Below are positions 1 through 55,380 of a stretch of DNA of 64,000 bases, in pieces. The position numbers and the translations under genes are program-made. A model generated the notes under the pieces. The model saw only the letters and a program-made list of their open reading frames with translations. It was not told the origin of the DNA and did not search any database. Within the stretch, counting starts at the first letter, position 1. Each line of letters starts with the position of its first letter. Source of the DNA: Archangium primigenium (GTDB lineage Bacteria; Myxococcota; Myxococcia; Myxococcales; Myxococcaceae); the NCBI RefSeq assembly GCF_016904885.1, contig NZ_JADWYI010000001.1, positions 6,324,001-6,388,000 of the forward strand, read 5' to 3'.

Positions 1-17730
<17,730 letters not shown>

Positions 17731-41212: not shown

Positions 41213-42421
41213 ATGACGACCGCCACCGAGCGCCTCTACTACGCCGATCCCTTCCTCACGCACTTCACTGGACATGTCGTCGCGCACGGCACCTGGAATG
41301 GTCAGCCGTCCGTGGTGCTCGACCGCACCGCCTTCTACCCGGAGGCCGGCGGACAGATGGCCGACCGGGGCGTCCTCGGAGGCCGGGCCGTGCGGGACGT
41401 GCAGGTGGATGATGCGGGGGTGGTCCACCACCTGCTGGAGCCCGCTGGGGACGCGCCCCTGCCCGCTCCGGGCACCGCGCTCACCGGGGACATCGAGCCC
41501 GTGCGCCGCCGCATCCACATGGCGCTGCACACCGGGCAGCACATGCTGTCCTGCGCGCTGGTGAACGTGGCCCAGGCCCACACCGTGTCCTCGCGCCTGG
41601 GCGAGACGGTGTGCACGATCGACGTGGACCTGGACGTGCTCGACGAGCGGCTCGTCGCCGAGGCCGAGGCCCAGGTCAACGCCCTCATCGACGCGGACGT
41701 GCCCATCCGTTCCTTCTTCCCCACGCCCGAGGAGCTCGCCACCCTGCCCCTGCGCCGCGCCCCCAAGGTCACCGACAACATCCGCGTGGTGCAGATCACC
41801 GGCTATGACGTGTCCCCCTGCGGCGGCACGCACTGCACGCGCTCGGGTCAGGTGGGGCTCGTGCGGGTGCTCGGCGTGGAGCGCTACAAGGGCAAGGGCC
41901 GCGTCTTCTTCTCCGCGGGGGGCCGGGCCCGAAGCGAGCTGTGGCAGGAGGCCGCCACGCTGCGCGCGCTCGCCCGGGGCTTCTCGTGCGCGCCGCTCGA
42001 GGTGCCCACGTCCGTGGACAAGCTGCGGCGCGATCTCACCGAGGCGCGCGAGGCGCTGGGCGCCGCCCGGGCGAAGCTCGCCGAGGCCACCGCCGCCGAG
42101 CTCGCCGGACAACTGGAGCGCTCGCCCGAGCAGCGCGTGGTGGCGGTGCTGGAGGGTGCCGGGCCCGAGGAGCTGCGCGCGGTGGCCGCGCGACTGACGA
42201 ACCGGCCGGGCGCCGTGGTGCTGCTCGCGGGCCGCTCGCCCGAGGGCCTCGCCGTCCTTTTGTCGCGGGGCGCGGGCGCGACGTTCGGGTGTGGTGCCTT
42301 CCTCAAGCGCGCGGCCGAGGCCGTGGGCGGACGCGGCGGCGGCCGGCCCGAGCACGCCGAGGGCCGGCTTCCGCCCCAGACGGACTGGCCCGCGCTGGTG
42401 GCCTCCCTGCTGGGCACCTGA
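41213..42421 (+). CDS. AlaX-type alanyl-tRNA editing protein (long form)
   Basis: 402 residues. Hydrolyses Ser or Gly wrongly attached to tRNA-Ala. The N-terminal part matches the beta-barrel and editing domain of AlaRS (YPEAGGQMADRG, about 40-52). The zinc and catalytic residues HTGQH (H106, H110) and CGGTH (C203, H207) are all present. The C-terminal part resembles DHHA1 (GGGRPEHAEG), so this is the AlaX-L arrangement. There is no aminoacylation domain. Confidence 0.9.
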   Translation: MTTATERLYYADPFLTHFTGHVVAHGTWNGQPSVVLDRTAFYPEAGGQMADRGVLGGRAVRDVQVDDAGVVHHLLEPAGDAPLPAPGTALTGDIEPVRRRIHMALHTGQHMLSCALVNVAQAHTVSSRLGETVCTIDVDLDVLDERLVAEAEAQVNALIDADVPIRSFFPTPEELATLPLRRAPKVTDNIRVVQITGYDVSPCGGTHCTRSGQVGLVRVLGVERYKGKGRVFFSAGGRARSELWQEAATLRALARGFSCAPLEVPTSVDKLRRDLTEAREALGAARAKLAEATAAELAGQLERSPEQRVVAVLEGAGPEELRAVAARLTNRPGAVVLLAGRSPEGLAVLLSRGAGATFGCGAFLKRAAEAVGGRGGGRPEHAEGRLPPQTDWPALVASLLGT

Positions 42422-42552
42422 AAACCGGGGATGTGGGGCGTCGAACGCTGGCGTTACCGGCCCACGAGAATCAGGGCCGGGCCCGTTCACTTCCTGGCGC
42501 CCATCCTCTGGGACGACGGCGGGGGCGGGGCCGACCTGTCACGCTCCGGTGC

Positions 42553-45366
42553 ATGATTCCCCTGACGCAAGCGCACGGCGCCGTGCCCCCCCGGCTCGAG
42601 CAGTTTCTCGAGGCGGTCTCGGACGGCGTGCTCACCCTCGACGCGGAGGATCGGACGCTGTACGTCAACGCGGGCGCCGAGCGCCTCCTCGGCGTGGAGC
42701 GGGCCCGACTGCTGGGCCACGTGCTCTGGGACCAGGTGCCCGCGCTGGCGCACACCGCCTGGGGCCAGGCGTGTCGGCAGGCGCTCGGGCAGCGCGCGGC
42801 CACCACCCGGGAGGAGTTCTTCCCCGCGCTGGGCGCCTGGGTGGAGATCCGGGTGTTTCCCTCCGGCGAGGGCCGGATGCTCCTCCTGCGCGACGTGACG
42901 CCACTCACCCAGGTGGCCTCGGAGTCCGCGAGCCTGCACGCGCTGGTGGCCAGCGCCCCCGCGGTGGCCTTCGTGACGCGCGGCCCCCGGCACGTCTTCG
43001 TGCTCTCCAACGAGCGCCACCGGCGACTGCACGGGGGCCGGGAGCTGGTGGGCCACGCCGCGAGCGAGCTGGCCGGGGTGCCTCGGGGCCTCCTGGAGGT
43101 GCTCGACCGGGTGTACGCCACGGGTCAGGCGCTGGAATTGGAACAGGTGCCGCTCACGGTGGAGACGCCGGGCGGCCCCCGCGAGGAGCGGGTCTTCCAC
43201 CTCACCTGCCAACCCCTGCCGGGGGCCGGGGGCCGGGTGGACGGCGTGACGGTGTTCGCCTTCGACGTGACGGAGGTGGTGCGCGGGCGCTGGCGCGCCG
43301 AGCGGCTGGCGGAGGAGCTGAGCCTGAGCGAGGTGCGCTTCCGCTCGCTCGTGGTGGCCACCTCCACGCTGCTCTGGACGACGGACGCCGCGGGGTGCTT
43401 CCGCGAGGACTCGCCCACCTGGTGTGCCTTCACCGGGCAGCGCTACGAGGACTGGCGCGATGGCTCGGGGTGGTGGGAGGCCATCCACCCAGAGGATCGC
43501 GCGCGCACCACGGCGGCCTGGCGGCGCGCCTTCTCCACCCGAGGGCTCTTCGAGGCGGAGTACCGGCTCCAGCGCGCCGATGGCACCTACACGCCGGTGG
43601 TGTCCCGCGGCGTGCCGGTGCTGGAGCTGGACGGCTCCGTGCGCGAGTGGGTGGGCTCCATCACCGACATCACCGCCCAGCGCCGCGCGCGCCAGACCCT
43701 GGAGCTGCTCAGCGAGGCGAGCACCGCGCTGTCCTCCACCTGGGAGCTGCACCGCGCCCTGGAGAGCCTCACGCGCTGTCTGGTGCCGCGGCTGGCCGAG
43801 GCCTGTGGCGTCTACCTGCGGCGCGAGGATGGCACGGGCGAGCGCGTGGCCTTCACGGACGTGGAGCCCCTGCGCGTCGCGCGGCTGCGCCAGGTGGAGC
43901 CCCCGGGCGAGGTGCCCCCCACCGTGCGTCAGGTGCTGGCCCACGGCCGCGGCGAGTGCGTCGCCGCGCTCGGCGAGGAGGCCCTCGCCGCCGAGCCCGA
44001 TGCCGCCCGGCGCGAGGCGCGGCGGATCCTCCTGGGCCGACGGGGGCTCGTGGTGCCCATCACCGTCAAGGGCCAGGTGCGCGGCGCCCTGCTGCTGCTC
44101 GCGGGCGAGGGCTACCCGCCCTACGACGGCGACGACCTGCGGCTGGCCGAGGAGCTGGCCCACCGCGCCGCCATCACCCTGGAGCACGTGCGCCTCTTCG
44201 AGCTGGCGCGCCAGGAGCGCGACCGGGCCGAGGAGGCCAACCGCGCCAAGGACGCGTTCCTCGCCACCGTCAGCCACGAGCTGCGCACGCCGCTCACCGC
44301 CATCCTCGGCTGGACGAACATCCTGCGCACCACGCCCCTGTCCCCGGAGAAGCAGGGCCGCGCCCTGGAGACGGTGGAGCGCAGCGCCCGGGCCCAGGCG
44401 CAGATCGTGGAGGACCTGCTGGACATCTCGCGCATCGTGGCCGGCCGGATGCGCCTGGAGGGCAAGCCGGTGGAGCTCGCCCTGGTGGTGGAGGCGGTGC
44501 TGGAGGGGGTGCGTCCGGCGGCGGCCGCGCGCGACATCCGGCTGGAGGCCCAGTTGGATCCGGGCCGCGTGCTCGGAGACGCCCAGCGGCTGCAGCAGGT
44601 GGCGTGGAACCTGCTCACCAACGCCATCAAGTTCACGCCCCCGGGCGGCCGGGTCTGGGTGCGGCTCGCGCGCACCGCGTCCCAGATGGAGCTGGAGGTG
44701 CGGGACTCGGGCCAGGGCATCCCCGCCGCGTTCCTCTCGCACGTCTTCCAGCGCTTCCAGCAGGCCGATGGCAGCACCACCCGGCGTCACGGCGGGCTCG
44801 GCCTGGGCCTGTCCATCGTGCGCCACCTGGTGGAGTTGCAGGGCGGCACCGTCCACGCCCACAGCGAGGGCGAGGGCCTGGGCGCGTGCTTCTCCGTGCG
44901 GCTGCCCCTGCTCACCCCCCGCATGCCGTCCCGGCCGCGGCTCGCGGCGGTGTCCGGCCCCCGTCCCGAGCAGCCCCCCGACCTGTCCGGCGTGCGCGTC
45001 CTGGTGGTGGACGACGAGCACGACGCGCGGGAGATCCTCCGCACCCTGCTGGAGGAGAGCCGCGCGCACGTGGTGACCGCCGCCAGCTCCGCCGAGGCGC
45101 TGGAGTTGCTCGCGCGCGCCCCACCAGATCTGCTCGTCTCGGACATCGGCATGCCGGAGGAGGACGGCTACAGCTTCATCCGCCGCGTGCGCGCGCTGCC
45201 CCCCGAGCGCGGAGGCCAGGTGCCCGCCGCCGCCCTCACCGCCTACACCCGTCCCGAGGACCAGGCCCACGCCCTGGGCGCCGGCTTCCAGGTCCACGTG
45301 CCCAAGCCCATCGATCCCACCCAGCTCATGAAAACCCTGGCATCCATGCTCGCCGCCACGGGATGA
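42553..45366 (+). CDS. Hybrid sensor histidine kinase with PAS, GAF and receiver domains
   Basis: 937 residues, no membrane helix, so probably cytoplasmic. Order: PAS (about 15-115), second PAS-like (about 120-235), PAS with PAC (about 255-375), GAF (about 385-550), HisKA (phospho-His575 in ATVSHELRTPL), HATPase (NLLTNAIKF, DSGQGIPA, GLGLGLSIV), then a C-terminal receiver with phospho-acceptor Asp864 (LLVSDIGMPEEDGY) and the conserved KP (VPKPIDP). The ATG at 42553 lacks a strong ribosome site. No separate response regulator gene is next to it. The 131-base upstream gap (42422-42552) shows nothing further. Confidence 0.9.
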   Translation: MIPLTQAHGAVPPRLEQFLEAVSDGVLTLDAEDRTLYVNAGAERLLGVERARLLGHVLWDQVPALAHTAWGQACRQALGQRAATTREEFFPALGAWVEIRVFPSGEGRMLLLRDVTPLTQVASESASLHALVASAPAVAFVTRGPRHVFVLSNERHRRLHGGRELVGHAASELAGVPRGLLEVLDRVYATGQALELEQVPLTVETPGGPREERVFHLTCQPLPGAGGRVDGVTVFAFDVTEVVRGRWRAERLAEELSLSEVRFRSLVVATSTLLWTTDAAGCFREDSPTWCAFTGQRYEDWRDGSGWWEAIHPEDRARTTAAWRRAFSTRGLFEAEYRLQRADGTYTPVVSRGVPVLELDGSVREWVGSITDITAQRRARQTLELLSEASTALSSTWELHRALESLTRCLVPRLAEACGVYLRREDGTGERVAFTDVEPLRVARLRQVEPPGEVPPTVRQVLAHGRGECVAALGEEALAAEPDAARREARRILLGRRGLVVPITVKGQVRGALLLLAGEGYPPYDGDDLRLAEELAHRAAITLEHVRLFELARQERDRAEEANRAKDAFLATVSHELRTPLTAILGWTNILRTTPLSPEKQGRALETVERSARAQAQIVEDLLDISRIVAGRMRLEGKPVELALVVEAVLEGVRPAAAARDIRLEAQLDPGRVLGDAQRLQQVAWNLLTNAIKFTPPGGRVWVRLARTASQMELEVRDSGQGIPAAFLSHVFQRFQQADGSTTRRHGGLGLGLSIVRHLVELQGGTVHAHSEGEGLGACFSVRLPLLTPRMPSRPRLAAVSGPRPEQPPDLSGVRVLVVDDEHDAREILRTLLEESRAHVVTAASSAEALELLARAPPDLLVSDIGMPEEDGYSFIRRVRALPPERGGQVPAAALTAYTRPEDQAHALGAGFQVHVPKPIDPTQLMKTLASMLAATG

Positions 45367-45613: not shown

Positions 45614-48600
45614 ATGTCCAAGCTGTGGCCTCGTTGGCCCCTGCTCCTCGCCTCGTTCCTGACGGCGGGACCAGTCCTCGCGGCGGGCGAAAAACTCGCC
45701 CCCGTGTCCCGTAACGCGCTCGACCAGTTGCGCGCCCGCGAGAGCGCGCGCGTCGCCACGTCGCTCTCCTCCCTGCGCACGCTCAAGAGCGCGCTCGGAC
45801 TCAACGAGCGCGACGACTTCCGGCTGACCGGCGCGCAGACGGACGCCTTCGGCCTCACGCACGCCCACTTCCAGCAGCTGCACCAGGGCGTGCCGGTGTG
45901 GGGCTCCATGGCCATCACCCACCTGGATCCCTCCGGCAAGAGCCTGCCGGTGACGGGGGAGTCGGTGCGTCCGGGCGTCCGCCTGTCCACGTCGCCCAAG
46001 CTGGACATGGCCAGCGCGATGTCGCTCGCCCAGGTGGAGCTGTCGCCCAACGGGCTGATGGGCGCCGAGCCCACGGCCGAGCTCGTCATCTATCCGGAGA
46101 CCCGGCGGGTCAACGGGGAGCCGGGCAAGGAGCTGTCCAAGCTCAACGCGGTGGACTTCACCGAGGAGGTGGTGGGCTACCGGCTCGCCTGGCACGTGCA
46201 CACCGAGCTGGACAACCCCAAGGACGGGGTGGCCCACACGGACTTCCTGCTGGACGCCAACACGGGCGTGGTGCTCAAGCGCTGGAACTCGCTGCAGACC
46301 GAGGCGGCGGTGGGCCGGGGCCTGTCGCAGTACAGCGGCGAGGTGCAGCTCGACACCTTCAAGAACGCGGCGGGCCTCTACGAGCTGCGCGACACGACGC
46401 GCACGGCCGGCGAGGGCCTGCGCACCTACGACGTGAACCACGCCGAGTTGCAGAACGGCGCTCCGGCCGTGCTCGTGCTCTACACGGACACGGACAACGT
46501 CTGGGGTGACGGGCAGAACTACATCGCGGGCGGCTCCACCACCAACGCCAACGGCCAGACGGCGGCGGTGGACGCGCACTTCGGCCTGCAGGCCACGTGG
46601 GACTACTACCAGAAGATCCACGGGCGCTTCGGCATCGACGGCATGGGCACGCCCACCTACAACCGGGTGCACGTCGGCAACCTGTACAACAACGCCTTCT
46701 GGAGCAACGCCTGCTTCTGCATGAGCTACGGCGACGGCTCCTTCCCGGCGGCCGGGGGCTTCAAGTCCCTGGAGGCCCTGGACGTGACGGGCCACGAGCT
46801 GAGCCACGGCGTCATGTCGCAGACGGCGCAGCTCATCTACGCGGGGGAGTCCGGCGGCCTCAACGAGTCCAACTCGGACATCTTCGGCGCCATGACGGAG
46901 TTCTGGGTGCGCAACGGCCGGGGCGCCACCATTGGCAACACCGGCGGCAACTGGCTCATCGGCGAGGACCTCAACGTCAAGCCGCTGCGGGTCATGTACA
47001 AGCCGAGCCTGGACGGCATCAGCCCGGACGCCTGGTCCGCGAGCCTGGAGGCCGTCGACGTCCACTACAGCAGTGGCCCGATGAACCGCGCCTTCTACTT
47101 CCTGTCCGCGGGCGCGCAGTCCACGGCCACGACGAACGACTACTCCAGCCCCTACCTGCCCGGCGGCATGACGGGCATCGGCAACGACAAGGCGGCGGCC
47201 ATCTGGTACCGCGCCATCACCGTGTACCTGGTGCCCTCGAGCAACTACGTGGCGGCGCGCACCGCGTCGCTGCAGTCGGCCGCGGACCTCTTCGGCGCGA
47301 AGTCGGCCGAGTACACCGCGGTGGTGAACGCCTTCAGCGCCATCAACGTGGGCTACACGGCCAGCGGCTATGACGACCGCACGGCGCCCACGGTGAGCGC
47401 GAGCGTGTCGGGCAGCGCGCCCTTCCTGCAGCTCAACGCCGTCGCCTCGGACAACGTGGGCGTGGCGCGCGTGGAGTTCCTGGTGGACGGCGCGCTGGTG
47501 GGCACCGACGTGAGCCTGCCCTTCCAGACGACGCTGGACGTGACGCCGCTGAACAACGGCGCGCACAAGCTGGTGGCGCGCGCCTTCGACACGGCGGGCA
47601 ACAAGACCGACTCGGCGCCCGTCACCTTCAACGTGGCCAACAGCTTCACCCAGCTGCTGAGCGACCCGGGCTTCGAGCAGGGCGGCGTGGGCTGGGAGGC
47701 CAACCCCCGCGGCAACATCAACTTCCCCGTCTCCGGCGCGCGCTCGGGCCAGGGCTACGTGTGGCTCAACGGCTACGGCACGACCTCCGACGACAACCTG
47801 TACCAGGACGTCACCATCCCGGCGGGCGCCACCAAGGCCTCGCTGACCTTCTACCTCAACATCACCACCGCCGAGACGAGCACCACCGCGACCAACGACA
47901 CGCTCACGCTGCAGGCGCGTGACACCTCGAACACGGTGCTCGCCACGCTGGCCACCTGGTCCAACCTCAACCCCACGCTCGGCTGGGTGCAGCGCAGCGT
48001 GGACGTGACGGCCTACGCGGGCCAGACGGTGCGCATCTACCTGCGCGGCCAGGAGAACAACTCGCTGGCCACCAACTTCAAGCTGGATGACTTCCAGCTG
48101 CGCGTCATCACCGCCGCGGACACCGAGGCCCCCCTGATCAAGGGCTCGGTCACCACCAACGCCGCGGGCAGCGTGGTGGGCTTGCTCGCGGACGTGTCGG
48201 ACAACGGCTTCGTCGGCGCGGTGGAGTTCCTCGTGGACGGCACCTCCGTGGGCACGGCGCCCACGTCGTTCGCCCGGCTCGTCACGGCGGCCTCCCTGGG
48301 CAACGGCACGCACTCGCTGGTGGTCCGCGCCACGGACGCGGCGGGCAACGTGGGCCAGTCCGCCCCCGTGTCCTTCTTCGTGGACGCGAGCCGCAGCCAG
48401 GTCGTCATCAACCCGAGCTTCGAGCTGAGCACCGGCTGGACCTCCACCACGACGCTCTCCGGCTCGGCGGGCATCCTCAACAGCGCCTCGTTCGCCCACT
48501 CCGGCTCGCGCTTCTTCATCGTCTACACGAACGTGGGCCCCAACCAGTCCACCGTGCGCCAGCAGATCACCATCCCCGCCACGGCCCAGTCCGCCATCTA

Positions 48601-49849
48601 CAGCTTCTGGATGCGCATCTACGACGGTGCCTTCATGGACGGCAAGGTGCACCACACCTACACCGCCAAGGTGCGCAGCTCGGCGGGCGTGGACCTGCAG
48701 ACGCTCAAGACGTTCTCCAACCTGGATCAGACGGGCGTCCAGTACTTCGAGCACCGCTTCGACCTGAGTGCCTACAAGGGCCAGACCATCCAGCTCTTCT
48801 TCGATGCGAACCTGCTCGAGCCCGCGCTGGTGCCCGGTGGCGTGACGCAGTGGTTCCTGGATGACGTGACGCTCTACACCACCACCACGCCCGACACGCA
48901 GCCGCCCGCGCTCACCGCGAGCGTCAACGGCACCTACGGCACGGTGAAGCTCAACGCCAGCGTGAGCGACAACGTGTGGACGCAGAAGCTCGAGTTCCTC
49001 GTGGACGACGTCCTGGTGGACACGAAGACCAACCCCAGTGGCAGCTACACGGTGCCGTACAACACCTCCGCGCTCGCCAACGGCCCGCACCGCCTGACGG
49101 TCAAGGGCACGGACACCGCGGGCAACGTGAGCACGGCGACGGTGGACTTCGACACCTTCAACTCCACCGTGGTGGACAACGCGGCGCCCACGGTCAGCGC
49201 GAACGTGGAGGGCGTGTACGAGTCGACGGTGTTCACCGCCAGCGCCAGCGACGACACGGGCGTCACCCACGTGGAGTTCTACGTGGACGGCGTGTTCCAG
49301 GGCCGCGTGCAGCAGGCCCCCTACCGGCTGCCCTTCAGCACCCTGCCCCTGTCCCCCGGGGAGCACTCGCTGATGGCGGTGGCGTATGACGCCTACGGCC
49401 ACTCCACCTCGGCCACCAAGACGTTCCGGCGCGAGGGCGTGGCCATCACCCCGGCCCAGGTGGTCATGGCGGTGAACAGCACGTTCGCCTTCAGCTCGGA
49501 CGCCCCCAGCGGCATGGAGGCGACGCTGCAGTGGAGCGTCAAGGAAGGCCGCGTGTGCGGCACGGTCTCCGGCACGGGCGTCTACACGTCGCCCGCCAGC
49601 CGCGGCGTGTGCCACGTGCAGGTGGCCCTCAAGTCGGATGCCCGCGCCAGCTCCACGGCCACCGCGCGCATCTACTCCGCGGACCTCAACGGGGATGGCC
49701 GCGTGGACGGCGAGGACCTGGGCCGGCTCGCCCAGGCCCACGGCTCCACCCCCGGTGGCGTGAACTACAGCGAGGACGCCGACTTCGATGCGAGCGGCGC
49801 CGTGAACGACGCCGACATCACCCTCTTCGTCAGCCAGTTCGGACGGTAA
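45614..49849 (+). CDS. Secreted thermolysin-family (M4) metalloprotease with Ig-like repeats and a C-terminal dockerin
   Basis: 1,411 residues. Signal peptide (1-24, ASFLTAGPVLAAG). FTP/PepSY propeptide (about 70-220). Zn protease domain (about 260-600) with HELSH (His394, His398), Glu418 in GGLNES (24 residues after His394, as in thermolysin) and the active His484 in HYSSGPMN. All catalytic residues are present. The C-terminal 800 residues carry Ig-like repeats with the VEFLVDG signature and two carbohydrate-binding-like beta-sandwich segments. The end (about 1355-1411) is a dockerin with two calcium loops, DLNGDGRVDGEDL at 1357 and DADFDASGAVNDAD at 1388. The lipoprotein gene starts 3 bases after the stop. 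Likely a secreted proteinase for predation or nutrition, anchored through its dockerin. Confidence 0.92.
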   Translation: MSKLWPRWPLLLASFLTAGPVLAAGEKLAPVSRNALDQLRARESARVATSLSSLRTLKSALGLNERDDFRLTGAQTDAFGLTHAHFQQLHQGVPVWGSMAITHLDPSGKSLPVTGESVRPGVRLSTSPKLDMASAMSLAQVELSPNGLMGAEPTAELVIYPETRRVNGEPGKELSKLNAVDFTEEVVGYRLAWHVHTELDNPKDGVAHTDFLLDANTGVVLKRWNSLQTEAAVGRGLSQYSGEVQLDTFKNAAGLYELRDTTRTAGEGLRTYDVNHAELQNGAPAVLVLYTDTDNVWGDGQNYIAGGSTTNANGQTAAVDAHFGLQATWDYYQKIHGRFGIDGMGTPTYNRVHVGNLYNNAFWSNACFCMSYGDGSFPAAGGFKSLEALDVTGHELSHGVMSQTAQLIYAGESGGLNESNSDIFGAMTEFWVRNGRGATIGNTGGNWLIGEDLNVKPLRVMYKPSLDGISPDAWSASLEAVDVHYSSGPMNRAFYFLSAGAQSTATTNDYSSPYLPGGMTGIGNDKAAAIWYRAITVYLVPSSNYVAARTASLQSAADLFGAKSAEYTAVVNAFSAINVGYTASGYDDRTAPTVSASVSGSAPFLQLNAVASDNVGVARVEFLVDGALVGTDVSLPFQTTLDVTPLNNGAHKLVARAFDTAGNKTDSAPVTFNVANSFTQLLSDPGFEQGGVGWEANPRGNINFPVSGARSGQGYVWLNGYGTTSDDNLYQDVTIPAGATKASLTFYLNITTAETSTTATNDTLTLQARDTSNTVLATLATWSNLNPTLGWVQRSVDVTAYAGQTVRIYLRGQENNSLATNFKLDDFQLRVITAADTEAPLIKGSVTTNAAGSVVGLLADVSDNGFVGAVEFLVDGTSVGTAPTSFARLVTAASLGNGTHSLVVRATDAAGNVGQSAPVSFFVDASRSQVVINPSFELSTGWTSTTTLSGSAGILNSASFAHSGSRFFIVYTNVGPNQSTVRQQITIPATAQSAIYSFWMRIYDGAFMDGKVHHTYTAKVRSSAGVDLQTLKTFSNLDQTGVQYFEHRFDLSAYKGQTIQLFFDANLLEPALVPGGVTQWFLDDVTLYTTTTPDTQPPALTASVNGTYGTVKLNASVSDNVWTQKLEFLVDDVLVDTKTNPSGSYTVPYNTSALANGPHRLTVKGTDTAGNVSTATVDFDTFNSTVVDNAAPTVSANVEGVYESTVFTASASDDTGVTHVEFYVDGVFQGRVQQAPYRLPFSTLPLSPGEHSLMAVAYDAYGHSTSATKTFRREGVAITPAQVVMAVNSTFAFSSDAPSGMEATLQWSVKEGRVCGTVSGTGVYTSPASRGVCHVQVALKSDARASSTATARIYSADLNGDGRVDGEDLGRLAQAHGSTPGGVNYSEDADFDASGAVNDADITLFVSQFGR

Positions 49850-49852
49850 CCC

Positions 49853-52621
49853 ATGAAAACGTTGACCAAGCTCATTGCTCCCCTGCTGCTCGGCGTGCTC
49901 GCCGCGTGCGGCAACGAGCCCACGCCTGGGTCGGGTCCGGTGACGGTCTCGCCCAAGTCCATCACCGTGAAGGCCGGCGACTCCGCCACCCTCACCGCGT
50001 CCGTGGAAGGCACCCAGGAGCCGAAGATCCTCTGGAGTGTGGAGGGTGAAGGCTCGGGCACCATCACCAGCGCGGGCGTCTACACGGCGCCCCCGCAGGC
50101 GGGCTCGTACACGGTGGTGGCCACCAACGCGCTGGACGCCACCAAGAAGGACACCGCCGCGGTCACCGTCACCGCGGCCGTGGTCATCACCCTCACCCCC
50201 ACCTCGCCCTCGGTCTCCACCGCGGGCAGCCTCGCCTTCAGCGCGGAGGTGACGGGCGCGAGCGACACGTCGGTCACCTGGTCGGTCAAGGAAGGCGCCA
50301 CCGGGGGCAGCATCACCGCCGCGGGCGTGTACACCGCGCCGGACCAGGCGGGCACCTACACCGTGGTGGCCACGAGCGTGGCGGATCCCAGCCGCTCGGC
50401 GTCCACGCAGGTGCGGGTCGAGGCGCCGGGCATCACCGTGACGCCCAACGGCTCCACGGTGGACCAGGGCGCGGTGGTGCAGTTCGCCTCCACCGTCACC
50501 GGCGTGTCCAACACCAGCGTGACGTGGAGCGTGACGGGCGGCGGCACCATCACCGCCTCGGGCATCTACACCGCCCCCGCCCAGGAGGGCACCATCACCG
50601 TCATCGCCACCAGCGTGGCGGATCCGACGAAGAAGGGCAGCGCCACGCTCACCGTGCGCCCGGTGCAGGTGAGCATCACCCCGCCCTCGCAGACCATCGC
50701 CGAGTCGGGCACGGCGGCCTTCTACGCCACCGTGACGGGCACCACCGCGAGCACCGCGGTGACCTGGAGCGTCGAGGGCGGCTCGGCCAACGGCACCATC
50801 TCCGCCTCCGGCCTGTACACGGCGCCCGCCAAGGCGGGCACGTACACGGTGGTGGCCACCAGCGTGGCCAACCCCGCCAAGAAGGCCACCGCCCAGGTGA
50901 CCGTGGGCGCGGTGTCGGTGACCATCAGCCCCGAGTCGGTGACGCTCACCCCGGGCACCACCGCCACCTTCCGCCTGACGGTGACGGGCTCCTCCAACAC
51001 GGCGGCGCTCTGGAGCGTGGTGGGCGGTGACGACAACGGCACCATCACCTCCGCGGGTGTCTACACGGCGCCCGCCCGCGCGGGCACCTACACGGTGGTG
51101 GGCGCCCTCGCGTCCCACCCCGACAAGAAGGCCCAGGCCACCGTCACGGTGACGTCCACCACGGCGGTGTCGGTGAGCATCACCCCGGGCTCGGCCACGA
51201 TCGCCACCGGCGGCAGCGCCACCTTCAGCGCGCAGGTGACGGGGGCCAGCGACACGTCGGTCACCTGGTCGGTGCGCGAGGGCGCCACGGCGGGCAGCAT
51301 CAGCGCCGAGGGCGTGTACACCGCGCCCGCGCAGCCCGGCCTCTACACCGTGGTGGCCACCAGCGTGTCCAACCCGGGCGCCTCGGCCACCGCCCAGGTG
51401 CGGGTCGAGGCCCCGGGCGTCACCGTGACGCCCAACGGCGCCACGGTGGACCAGGGCGCGGTGGTGGAGTTCTCCGCCAACGTCACCGGCACGTCCAACA
51501 CCAGCGTGACGTGGAGCGTGACGGGCGGCGGCACCATCACCGCCTCGGGCATCTACACCGCTCCGGCCCAGGAGGGCACGGTCACCATCACCGCCACCAG
51601 CGTGGCCTACCCGGCGCAGAAGGGCAGCGCCACGCTCACCGTGCGTCCGGTGCAGGTGACGCTCACCCCGGCCTCGCAGACCATCTCCGAGTCGGGCACG
51701 GCGGCCTTCTACGCCACCGTGACGGGCACCACCGCGAGCACCGCGGTGACCTGGAGTGTCGAGGGCGGCGCCAGCAACGGCACCATCTCCGCCTCGGGCG
51801 TCTACACGGCGCCGGCCCAGGCGGGCACGTACACGGTGGTGGCCACCAGCGTGGCCAACCCCGACAAGAAGGCCACCGGGCAGGTGACGGTGCAGGCGGT
51901 GAGCGTGGCCATCACCCCCACCTGGGTGACGCTCGCCCAGGGCGCCACCACCACCTTCACGGCGAGCGTGACGGGCACCTCCAACCAGGCGGTGCTCTGG
52001 AGCGTGGAGGGCGGTGACGGCAACGGCACCATCACCTCCTCGGGCATCTACACGGCCCCCACCCGTCCGGGCACCTTCACCGTGGTGGCCGCCAGCGCCG
52101 CCGTCCCGAGCAAGACGGCCACCGCCACCGTCACGGTCCCCGTGGCGAGCGGCGGCGACTACACCAACCCCACCGGCACGGGCTGGCGGCTGGTGAAGAA
52201 CACGTCGGCCTCCTCGGGCACCCACCTGGTGCTGGATCTGGTGGGCCCCACCGGCCAGTCCGGCCGGGGCGTGGACCTGACGCTGACGCTCAACCCGGCG
52301 CAGGCGACGTGGGCCAAGGTGTCCGGCTCCGACATGGAGTGGGTCACCAACCGCCTGTTCGAGCTGGGCGCCGCGCCGCGGCTGATCAAGGGCGCCGCCC
52401 AGGGTGGCCGGCTGGACGTGGGCGTGTTCCAGAAGGGCACGAGCGTCCCGGCGACGCCGTACTCCGGCGCGCTCCTCTCCGTGGCGGTGGACGTGAAGGT
52501 CGATGCGTCCATCCCCGCGGGCACGCGCATCCCCCTGACCGTCCTCAAGGCGCACGCCCTGCCCGCGACGGGCTCGCTGGCGCCCATTGACGTGGCGGTG
52601 GGCACGATCATCACCCAGTAG
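49853..52621 (+). CDS. Lipoprotein with nine Ig-like repeats and a cohesin-like C-terminal domain
   Basis: 922 residues. Signal peptide with lipobox (LLLGVLAACG, Cys about 20). Nine bacterial Ig-like repeats of about 80 residues (consensus WSV...GTI...GVYTAP...AGTYTVVATS) form a stalk (about 28-768). The last 150 residues are different: VDLTLTLNPAQATWAKV, GALLSVAVDVKV, PAGTRIPLTVLKA and VAVGTIIT follow the beta-strand order of a cohesin domain. This is pattern matching by eye; no search was run. Because the neighbouring protease ends in a dockerin, a lipid-anchored stalk holding the protease is plausible. GGACGG lies 6 bases before the ATG inside the end of the protease gene. Confidence 0.85.
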   Translation: MKTLTKLIAPLLLGVLAACGNEPTPGSGPVTVSPKSITVKAGDSATLTASVEGTQEPKILWSVEGEGSGTITSAGVYTAPPQAGSYTVVATNALDATKKDTAAVTVTAAVVITLTPTSPSVSTAGSLAFSAEVTGASDTSVTWSVKEGATGGSITAAGVYTAPDQAGTYTVVATSVADPSRSASTQVRVEAPGITVTPNGSTVDQGAVVQFASTVTGVSNTSVTWSVTGGGTITASGIYTAPAQEGTITVIATSVADPTKKGSATLTVRPVQVSITPPSQTIAESGTAAFYATVTGTTASTAVTWSVEGGSANGTISASGLYTAPAKAGTYTVVATSVANPAKKATAQVTVGAVSVTISPESVTLTPGTTATFRLTVTGSSNTAALWSVVGGDDNGTITSAGVYTAPARAGTYTVVGALASHPDKKAQATVTVTSTTAVSVSITPGSATIATGGSATFSAQVTGASDTSVTWSVREGATAGSISAEGVYTAPAQPGLYTVVATSVSNPGASATAQVRVEAPGVTVTPNGATVDQGAVVEFSANVTGTSNTSVTWSVTGGGTITASGIYTAPAQEGTVTITATSVAYPAQKGSATLTVRPVQVTLTPASQTISESGTAAFYATVTGTTASTAVTWSVEGGASNGTISASGVYTAPAQAGTYTVVATSVANPDKKATGQVTVQAVSVAITPTWVTLAQGATTTFTASVTGTSNQAVLWSVEGGDGNGTITSSGIYTAPTRPGTFTVVAASAAVPSKTATATVTVPVASGGDYTNPTGTGWRLVKNTSASSGTHLVLDLVGPTGQSGRGVDLTLTLNPAQATWAKVSGSDMEWVTNRLFELGAAPRLIKGAAQGGRLDVGVFQKGTSVPATPYSGALLSVAVDVKVDASIPAGTRIPLTVLKAHALPATGSLAPIDVAVGTIITQ
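50181..51167 (+). repeat. 987-bp block, Ig repeats 2-5 (first copy)
   Basis: Repeats 2-5 of the lipoprotein stalk match repeats 6-9 at a constant offset of 987 bases (329 codons). Stretches such as 50510-50574 appear identical to 51497-51561. Confidence 0.85.
51168..52154 (+). repeat. 987-bp block, Ig repeats 6-9 (second copy)
   Basis: Partner of 50181-51167. Similarity is in order and in frame, so the stalk grew by an in-frame tandem duplication of a four-repeat block. Confidence 0.85.
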
Positions 52622-52704: not shown

Positions 52705-55380
52705 TCAGCCCACGCGCGCCAGGGCGAGCCGGCCTTCCCAGCGCTCCTCGAGCGCCTTGACCAGGCCCTGGTGCGCGGTGGCCTCCAGGCGGGGATCCGC
52801 GGCGAGGATGCGCCGGGCCTCCTGCTGGGCCAGGGAGATGAGGTCGCCGTCCCGCGCGAGGTTGGCCACGGCCAGTTCCGGCAGGCCGCTCTGGCGCGTG
52901 CCGAGGAACTCACCGGGGCCGCGGATCTCCAGGTCCTTCTCCGCGATGACGAAGCCGTCGCTGCTGTGCTCCATCACCCCCAGCCGCTCCGAGGACTCCA
53001 TGGAGGAGCGCGCCAGGTTGGCCACGAGGTAGCAGTAGCTCACCGCCGCGCCCCGGCCCACACGGCCGCGCAGCTGGTGCAGCTGCGACAGGCCGAAGCG
53101 CTCGGCGGACTCGATGGCCATCACCGAGGCGTTGGGCACGTCCACGCCCACCTCCACCACCGTGGTGCACACGAGGATCTGGACACGGCCGGCGCGGAAC
53201 TCCCCCATCACCGCGTCCTTCTCCTCGGCCTTCATCCGGCCGTGCAGCAGGCCCACCGCGACGCCGGGGAACACCTCGCGCAGCTTGTCCACCCCGCGCG
53301 TGGCGTCCTCCAGGTCCAGCTTCTCCGACTCCTCCACGAGCGGGTACACCACGTAGGCCTGATGGCCCTTGGCCACCTCGCCGGCGATGGCCTCGTAGAC
53401 GCGCGCGCGCTGCTTGTCGTTGAAGACGCGCGTCTTGATGGGCGTGCGCCCCGGGGGCAGCTCGTCGATGATGGACACGTCCAGGTCCCCGTAGAGCGTC
53501 ATGGCCAGGGTGCGGGGAATGGGCGTGGCCGTCATCACCAGCACGTCCGGGGACACGCCCTTGCTCATGAGCGTGTGCCGTTGCAGCACGCCGAAGCGGT
53601 GCTGCTCGTCGATCACCACGAAGCCGAGCTTGTGGAAGGCCACGCCCTCCTGGATGAGCGCGTGCGTGCCCACGGCCAGGTGGATGTCCCCCCGGCCCAC
53701 GGCGTCGCGCACCTCGCGCTTCTTCTTGGCGGGGCCCGAGGCGCTCACCAGGCCGACCTTGTAGCCCAGGGGCTCGAGCAGCTTGCGGAAGGTGCGCTCG
53801 TGCTGCTCGGCGAGGATCTCCGTGGGGGCCATGACGGCCACCTGGTAGCCGTCCTGCAGCGCCAGGAGCGCGGCCACCGCGGCCACCGCCGTCTTGCCCG
53901 AGCCCACGTCGCCCTGCACCAGCCGGTTCATCGGCTCGTCATGGCCCATGTCCTGGGCAATCTCCCCGATGACGCGCTTCTGCGCGCCCGTGAGCTCGAA
54001 GGGCAGCGCGGCCCGGGCCTTGTCCTGGCGCGGCGCCGACACGTCGAAGCGGATGCCCTGCTCGCGCTTGACGTCCTGGCGCTTGAGCCCCATGCCGAGC
54101 TGCAGGAAGAACAGCTCGTCGAAGGCGAGCCGCCGGTGCGCGGGGCTCAGGTGCTTGTCGAGCAGCTCCGGCTCGGCGTCGCCCGCGGGGAAGTGGATGG
54201 CGCGCAGGGCCGCGGGCAGCGTCATCAACTGGAGCCGCGTGCGCAGGGACTCGGGCAGCGGCTCCTCCAGGTGGTCCGCGTAGGACTCGCTCACCACCGA
54301 GGCCAGCTCGCGGAACGAGCGCTGATCGCCCCGCTCGAAGCCCGGGTACACCGGGACGATGCGGTTGAAGTGCACCGAGGCGCCCTCGATGTCGTCCGCG
54401 GACTCGATCTCCGGGTGGGACATCTCCCGGCCGGACAGGGACGCGCGCACCTCGCCGGACAGCACCAGCTTCTTGCCCACGGGGAAGCGCGCCTTGAGCC
54501 AGGGGCCGGCGTTGAAGTACGTGGCGGCGATGCTCCCGGAGCGGTCGGCCACCACGGCGCGGAACATGCGCTTGCCGGTGCGGCCGGGCACGAAGTCGGC
54601 CACCTTCACCTCGCCCACCGTGACGCCCCGCTCGCCCGGCACCAGCTCGGAGATGGTGTGCAGCCGGCGTCGGTCCTCGTAGCAGCGCGGCAGCAGGAAG
54701 AGGATGTCCCCCACGCGCCGCAGGCCCTTCTTGTTGAGCGCCGCGAGCAGCCGGGGCCCGAGCCGCTTGCCCATCGTCTTGAGGGGAATGGACAGCGGGC
54801 CCGAGCGCGGCGCGATGGACAGGAGCTTCGCCTCGGCGCGCGACTCCTCCTGGCCCTTGACCACGCGCTTCTTCTTGCGCCGGGCGGGAGCGGCGTCCTC
54901 GCCCGGGGGCGCCGGAGCCGGGGGCGCCGGACGTGGCGGGGCCGCCCGGACGGGCGCGGCACGGGGCGCGGCGGGGGCCGTCGGGGCGGGCGCGGGGCGC
55001 GGCGCGGCGGGCCGCAGGGGCTCGGAGGAGCGCCACGCGGGCACGAGCGGGGGGGATGCCGCGGGGGCCGGGGCCGGGCGGGACGTGGGCGACGGCGCCG
55101 TGGAGGCCACCTGGGCGAGCTCCTCGGGCAGGGGCACCCCACTCAGCCGCAGGCCGGCCACCACGCCTCGGAGCGCCGCCTTGCGCCGCTCCACGGTGGC
55201 ATCGTCCACATGCGGCAGCGCCGCGCGCAGGTGCTTGAGCGCCTCCGCGTTCACCCCGGTCGCACCGGCCAGGGTGCGCTCCAACAGGCCGCGCAGATCC
55301 TTCACGGTGGAGAGGTGGGCGAAGTCGCCCCGGCAGGCGTAGCGCAGGGGTCCCACGAGACTGGCGAGCGGATGGTTCAC
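52705..55380 (-). CDS. recG: ATP-dependent DNA helicase RecG
   Basis: 891 residues, about 200 longer than the E. coli protein. Residues 1-85 form a folded-looking N-terminal part, 90-180 a Pro/Ala-rich linker, and the family match begins near 190 (LSIPLKTMGKRLGPRLL). The wedge/OB domain (LLPRCYEDRRRLHTISELVPG in part), Walker A (GDVGSGKTAVAAV, about 490-502), DEQH box (VIDEQHRFGVLQ) and C-terminal helicase motifs (QLRGRVGRG) are intact. It remodels stalled replication forks and Holliday junctions. It lies downstream of greA on the same strand with paired hairpins between. Confidence 0.95.
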   Translation of the reverse strand: MNHPLASLVGPLRYACRGDFAHLSTVKDLRGLLERTLAGATGVNAEALKHLRAALPHVDDATVERRKAALRGVVAGLRLSGVPLPEELAQVASTAPSPTSRPAPAPAASPPLVPAWRSSEPLRPAAPRPAPAPTAPAAPRAAPVRAAPPRPAPPAPAPPGEDAAPARRKKKRVVKGQEESRAEAKLLSIAPRSGPLSIPLKTMGKRLGPRLLAALNKKGLRRVGDILFLLPRCYEDRRRLHTISELVPGERGVTVGEVKVADFVPGRTGKRMFRAVVADRSGSIAATYFNAGPWLKARFPVGKKLVLSGEVRASLSGREMSHPEIESADDIEGASVHFNRIVPVYPGFERGDQRSFRELASVVSESYADHLEEPLPESLRTRLQLMTLPAALRAIHFPAGDAEPELLDKHLSPAHRRLAFDELFFLQLGMGLKRQDVKREQGIRFDVSAPRQDKARAALPFELTGAQKRVIGEIAQDMGHDEPMNRLVQGDVGSGKTAVAAVAALLALQDGYQVAVMAPTEILAEQHERTFRKLLEPLGYKVGLVSASGPAKKKREVRDAVGRGDIHLAVGTHALIQEGVAFHKLGFVVIDEQHRFGVLQRHTLMSKGVSPDVLVMTATPIPRTLAMTLYGDLDVSIIDELPPGRTPIKTRVFNDKQRARVYEAIAGEVAKGHQAYVVYPLVEESEKLDLEDATRGVDKLREVFPGVAVGLLHGRMKAEEKDAVMGEFRAGRVQILVCTTVVEVGVDVPNASVMAIESAERFGLSQLHQLRGRVGRGAAVSYCYLVANLARSSMESSERLGVMEHSSDGFVIAEKDLEIRGPGEFLGTRQSGLPELAVANLARDGDLISLAQQEARRILAADPRLEATAHQGLVKALEERWEGRLALARVG

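Follow-up and report, generated by a model that had tools for sequence, protein, structure and literature searches.

Few modular protein contacts are as strong or have been engineered as well as that between cohesins and dockerins, which is known mostly from cellulose-degrading anaerobes. In the clostridial cellulosome pairs (types I to III), a dockerin with calcium loops sits at the C terminus of an enzyme, and a cohesin, which is a beta-sandwich, is carried by a noncatalytic anchor protein. Here, we describe two adjacent genes with a similar layout in 64,000 nucleotides of the Archangium primigenium genome (assembly GCF_016904885.1, contig NZ_JADWYI010000001.1, positions 6,324,001 to 6,388,000; this whole stretch is called the window, and its numbering is used throughout). 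The first (45614-49849) encodes a secreted M4 metalloprotease that ends in a dockerin, and the second (49853-52621) encodes a lipoprotein with an immunoglobulin (Ig) stalk and a C-terminal cohesin-like domain; both lie on the forward strand. Unlike the clostridial systems, this locus has no scaffoldin with multiple cohesins and no cellulases, has one cohesin per dockerin in one operon, and differs further in its putative cohesin subfamily that Pfam does not recognize, in its Gram-negative lipoprotein anchor, and in a cargo that is a protease or, in related loci, a propeller. In a cellulosome, a scaffoldin that bears a carbohydrate-binding module and several cohesins assembles many dockerin enzymes. 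The genome examined here encodes one clear dockerin and one cohesin-like domain in all, as neighbors within a single operon, which agrees with a preliminary description of this DNA, made from its sequence alone, that placed the pair outside classical cellulosomes.

Noncellulosomal cohesins and dockerins are already known across life, and such modules are reportedly treated by Peer et al. (2009), as cited in PMC9012536. Adjacent cohesin and dockerin domains have been mentioned in anaerobic methanotrophic (ANME) archaea and their partners (PMC9012536, PMC10553843). The window locus shares the module pair and the use of single cohesins with these modules of ANME archaea and sulfate-reducing bacteria, with Clostridium perfringens glycoside hydrolases (2jh2, 2vo8, 2w1n, and 2o4e), and with Archaeoglobus (2xdh). 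It differs from them in being a strictly conserved adjacent gene pair with a peptidase or propeller as cargo and an Ig-stalk lipoprotein, distributed patchily across a family of predatory soil bacteria. Within the myxobacteria, the closest comparison for the cargo is FibA of Myxococcus xanthus, likewise an M4 metalloprotease, which is kept in the extracellular matrix or at the cell surface and is itself a lipoprotein with alanine at position +7 (PMC3222651). In contrast to FibA with its own lipid anchor, the window protease has none and would borrow that of its neighbor through dockerin-cohesin binding. Other Myxococcota also have a short cohesin lipoprotein directly beside dockerin-tailed proteins (loci L115 and L177); in L115, however, the cohesin is recognized by Pfam, a TIG domain takes the place of the Ig repeats, and the peptidases are of family M1 instead of M4. 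A search of the open-access literature for cohesin and dockerin did not find such pairs in myxobacteria, and absence there is no proof. Thus, the contact itself is known, and the features that appear new are, as far as these searches show, a distinct subfamily of cohesins, genes that pair one to one, cargo that is exchanged, and a lipoprotein stalk whose length varies.

Fold and ancestry of the lipoprotein C-terminal domain

The weak point of the preliminary description was its assignment, by eye, of a cohesin-like domain to the C terminus of the lipoprotein; we place this domain at residues 767 to 922 (52151-52618). Since these last 156 residues have no match by sequence in Pfam, NCBIfam, or PDB, a cohesin call is beyond the reach of sequence searches alone. 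Searching the whole genome with Pfam Cohesin at E ≤ 10 returned nothing, and a viral fold library gave no significant match. An AlphaFold model of the domain was built from nine relatives. With this model, whose predicted local distance difference test (pLDDT) value of 49 denotes low confidence, the 29 best Foldseek matches among 350,542 PDB chains were all cohesins (best E = 1.2e-3, probability 1.00). VIA-align gave a Z score of 8.7 over 126 residues at 3.6 Å to the cohesin CaCohA2 (6kgc), and its best 19 entries were likewise all cohesins; cohesins of C. perfringens are among the closest structural matches. The modeled domain is thus supported as a cohesin-type beta-sandwich, the fold for which the preliminary description had proposed that a structure prediction be made.

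Homology to established cohesins is significant only through bridging sequences, which are lipoproteins of other Myxococcota (L115, L171, and L154). One of these, L115, itself passes the Pfam Cohesin cutoff with 30 bits. In HHalign comparisons, eight classical cohesins match the bridging Myxococcota cohesins at 92% (E = 6.6e-7), and the bridge matches the family of the window domain at 71% (E = 3.6e-5), with 111 columns in register. The score of the latter comparison is 35.4, against 11.4 ± 2.0 (maximum, 17.2) for 60 column-shuffled controls. We conclude that the domain is best read as belonging to a cohesin subfamily which Pfam and NCBIfam do not recognize. The call made by eye is strengthened by the fold matches, by the profile bridge, and by a near-perfect genomic coupling with dockerins.

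Dockerins and cohesin-like domains occur together in Myxococcaceae

To describe this coupling, profiles of the domain and of the dockerin were searched separately in 96 Myxococcaceae genomes and then compared. Both modules are found in 31 genomes and neither in 62, while two have the domain only and one has the dockerin only (Fisher p of about 1e-21, with common descent not corrected for). Of the 44 dockerins, 43 are followed on their own strand by a cohesin-like domain, at distances of 331 to 5811 bp. Most genomes with the modules encode each of them once, the two genes being neighbors in an operon. Copy numbers also agree genome by genome, with four of each in G063, three of each in G053, G068, and G001, and two of each in another, and wherever a genome has two to four pairs, each dockerin keeps its own neighboring domain. 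In most loci, 3 to 6 bp separate the paired genes or the genes share 4 bp (ATGA), and the gene order is unchanged in remoter members, which come from related families. Because the gene pair is kept in every family locus that could be examined, it is more than a chance arrangement. The correlation between the trees of the two modules (mirror-tree r = 0.93) was set aside as evidence, since adjacent genes share their history.

The few exceptions dissolve once inspected. In G082, the contig starts inside the cohesin gene; in G095, a lipoprotein of 181 residues with a cohesin-like pattern by eye is encoded directly upstream of a dockerin-bearing M1 peptidase; and in G051, dockerin-like tails are present beside the domains. 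The G051 loci (L052 and L053) are tandem arrays in which M4 proteases with degenerate dockerin-like tails alternate with short cohesin-like lipoproteins.

Proposed anchoring mechanism and alternative explanations

We propose that the two-gene operon provides a private one-to-one dockerin-cohesin couple that holds the secreted protease on the lipoprotein, a reading to which we assign a probability of roughly 80%. The protease, which itself has no lipid anchor, would be exported and would mature by losing its propeptide. Its C-terminal dockerin would fold around calcium and dock on the cohesin-like tip of the lipoprotein, which the lipidated cysteine would hold in the outer membrane, with the Ig repeats spacing the protease away from the membrane. 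The protease would then remain with the cell that made it, or with vesicles of that cell, and would not diffuse off. Both the binding between dockerin and domain and its dependence on calcium are predicted from sequence, and the benefit may be that digestion products of prey or matrix protein are kept near the cell. Such tethering would be a special arrangement, because only one of the 11 M4 proteases encoded in this genome, that of the window, coincides with a dockerin. The pairs offer a testable answer to the question of how certain hydrolases of myxobacteria remain cell associated.

Several observations weigh against this proposal. Pfam Cohesin (PF00963) matches none of the 39 family members, which reach down to about 20% identity, and direct comparison of the family with classical cohesins is not significant by profile alignment (HHalign, 3%) and stays at the level of shuffled sequences in HMMER. 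The low confidence of the domain model counts in the same direction, as does the fact that Z scores of 7 to 8 are also reached by unrelated beta-sandwiches (gamma-hemolysin, 7.3; SpaD pilin, 7.1). The dockerin-like tails of G051 are very divergent, the second dockerin loop is partly degenerate (NLDGAGSVNDND) in the Myxococcus/Corallococcus clade, and adjacent genes are expected to be coinherited even without binding. A single-chain model of the dockerin and the lipoprotein (the TAA stop codon being read as a residue, since the two frames agree) has a pLDDT of 44 and a predicted template modeling score of 0.19 and carries no information on an interface either way. The lack of a significant direct match to cohesins and the low model confidence, with collagen-binding and pilin domains coming next at Z scores of about 7, would suit an arrangement in which the modules do not bind. 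The dockerin would then be a calcium-stabilized C-terminal cap, the domain another kind of beta-sandwich, such as an adhesin or a carbohydrate-binding domain, and the two genes would be neighbors through a shared task. However, this is very improbable given the unbroken run of cohesins at the head of the PDB matches, the bridge to Pfam cohesins, and the finding that the dockerin is the sole module always beside the domain while the cargo changes.

The strict operon pairing would suit any dedicated partner protein, and dedicated inhibitors often accompany proteases. The lipoprotein could therefore be a protease-binding chaperone or an inhibitor that protects the cell, with the dockerin merely the point of contact and tethering secondary. 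We regard such a role as improbable, since the module pair also accompanies BNR/sortilin-type propellers and the M1 peptidases of other lineages, and since a stalk that ranges from about 90 to 1900 residues is easier to reconcile with a spacer of variable length in an anchor than with inhibition of a single active site. A cohesin-dockerin pair might also link separate cells, or proteins encoded at different loci, in adhesion or matrix assembly; for ANME archaea and the sulfate-reducing bacteria that partner them, an adhesin role of cohesin and dockerin proteins has been proposed (PMC9012536, PMC10553843). Against this, most genomes, including the one studied here, offer a single dockerin and a single cohesin-like domain from one operon, and genomes with more pairs keep every dockerin beside its own neighbor, so that a function between loci has a low probability in place of a private anchor, although the same adjacent pair may bind between cells as well.

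Exchange of cargo among related loci

In the subfamily of the window, the cargo is the M4 protease. In a second subfamily, with 20 to 30% identity in the cohesin-like domain, the cargo is a BNR/sortilin-Vps10-type propeller, and divergent members at about 25% identity still keep the pair. This propeller subfamily (L054, L055, L057, L059, and L122 to L131, from other Myxococcaceae and relatives) is larger than the M4 subfamily. It combines a dockerin-tailed propeller with a lipoprotein that has a long repeat stalk and a cohesin-like tip, and in many loci the two genes share 4 bp (ATGA). Up to three copies of such pairs occur per genome besides the M4 pair. A Pfam-recognized form of the same arrangement is found in another family of the phylum (L115, on G105:C70), in which the gene for a lipoprotein with TIG and Pfam Cohesin domains is followed by two M1 peptidase genes whose products both end in a dockerin, so that one cohesin serves two cargo proteins. 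In G165, a gap of 30 bp separates a dockerin-tailed protein from the start of the cohesin lipoprotein encoded downstream of it. Another cohesin lipoprotein of G105 that belongs to the bridge group (L176, on G105:C37) has no dockerin match in the surrounding 14.5 kb, and the pairing rule is therefore not absolute outside the family studied here.

The stalk between the lipid and the cohesin-like domain also varies, from about 90 residues in L044 to about 1900 in L049 and L126. Across the family loci, cargo and stalk length vary, the sole constants being dockerin and cohesin-like domain, and constancy of just these two modules is what the two halves of a joint would show. We lean toward the wider reading that this is a plug-in anchoring system of general use in Myxococcota, in which a cohesin subfamily at lipoprotein tips, carried on evolvable stalks, is matched in each case by one dockerin on varied cargo (M4 or M1 peptidase or BNR/sortilin-type propeller), with up to four pairs per genome kept orthogonal. 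The paralogous pairs are a natural set for following the divergence of binding specificity and a possible source of new orthogonal pairs for protein engineering.

Features of the protease and the lipoprotein

The first gene encodes 1,411 residues, and its start codon matches that of orthologues opening with MSKPWPRWPLLL. Residues 1 to 24 (45614-45685, MSKLWPRWPLLLASFLTAGPVLAA), up to the predicted cleavage point, form a Sec signal peptide; judged from this peptide, which has no cysteine and no lipobox, the protease is not itself a lipoprotein. An FTP propeptide motif (45812-45958; PF07504, 7e-13) precedes the thermolysin-type catalytic domain (46313-47350; PF01447 and PF02868; PDB thermolysin, 4e-40), in which the zinc site HELSH ... 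ESNSD is intact. Pfam annotates Peptidase_M4 (8e-39), M4_C (7e-41), the FTP propeptide, four Big_7 domains, and Dockerin_1, and the protein has what defines a peptidase of family M4, namely, the HExxH ... E zinc site (HELSH, GGLNESNSD), the catalytic and C-terminal domains, and the propeptide.

The dockerin occupies residues 1355 to 1411 (49676-49846; PF00404). Dockerin_1 matches residues 1356 to 1404 with 20.9 bits in hmmscan, just below the cutoff of 22.9, and with 26.5 bits, above the cutoff, in the genome search, and solved dockerins lead the matches of a profile that covers this dockerin and its relatives (2y3n_B, E = 4e-10). Both calcium loops have 12 residues: loop 1 (49682-49717, DLNGDGRVDGED) is kept in all 15 close relatives aligned, and loop 2 lies at 49781-49816 (DFDASGAVNDAD). 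The module thus has the makeup of a type I dockerin, a duplicated 12-residue calcium loop plus helix within about 60 residues and usually terminal, and the preliminary description of a secreted M4 protease ending in a dockerin with two calcium loops holds. Classical cellulosomal dockerins have a dual binding mode. Here, the usual cohesin-contacting positions differ between the loops (GE in loop 1; DA, DN, or DS in loop 2), and this asymmetry, together with the degeneration of loop 2 in some relatives, points to a predicted single binding mode through one repeat and not to the dual mode. A second dockerin-like match in this genome (L002) was rejected, as its DVNGDGVPD repeats have the look of FG-GAP/VCBS and are no dockerin.

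The TAA stop codon of the protease (49847-49849) is followed by CCC and by the ATG of the lipoprotein at 49853, confirming the interval of 3 bases noted before. The lipoprotein has 922 residues (Pfam I-set, Ig_3, and Big_2), and the lipobox and nine Ig repeats ascribed to it are both present, the former as LAAC with the lipid-bearing Cys19 (49898-49909) and the latter as nine repeat starts of Big_2 type, also matched by Pfam, that make up the stalk (49940-52150). By the sorting rules of M. xanthus, lysine at position +2 directs a lipoprotein to the inner membrane, alanine at position +7 directs it to the matrix, and a lipoprotein with neither goes to the outer membrane (PMC3222651). The mature N terminus of the window lipoprotein, C-GNEPTP, has neither, and since a lipobox is present, the protein is predicted to sit in the outer membrane, where, under the proposed mechanism, it would face outward.

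Genomic context

The Myxococcaceae genome that contains the window (G000) measures 9.49 Mb, and its nearest named relatives are Pyxidicoccus, Myxococcus, Corallococcus, and Citreicoccus. Upstream of the gene pair lies a gene for a PAS-type hybrid sensor kinase with a receiver domain (41213-45366), and downstream lies a convergent gene for RecG (52705-55380). The kinase neighbor is common to L041 to L043, L050, and L051, and the RecG neighbor is common to L050 and L051 only. Because neither neighbor is seen in loci of the Myxococcus/Corallococcus type, the gene pair stands at different chromosomal places. Farther upstream, an open reading frame of 5,852 residues (172-17730) probably encodes a modular megasynthase, judged by its length.
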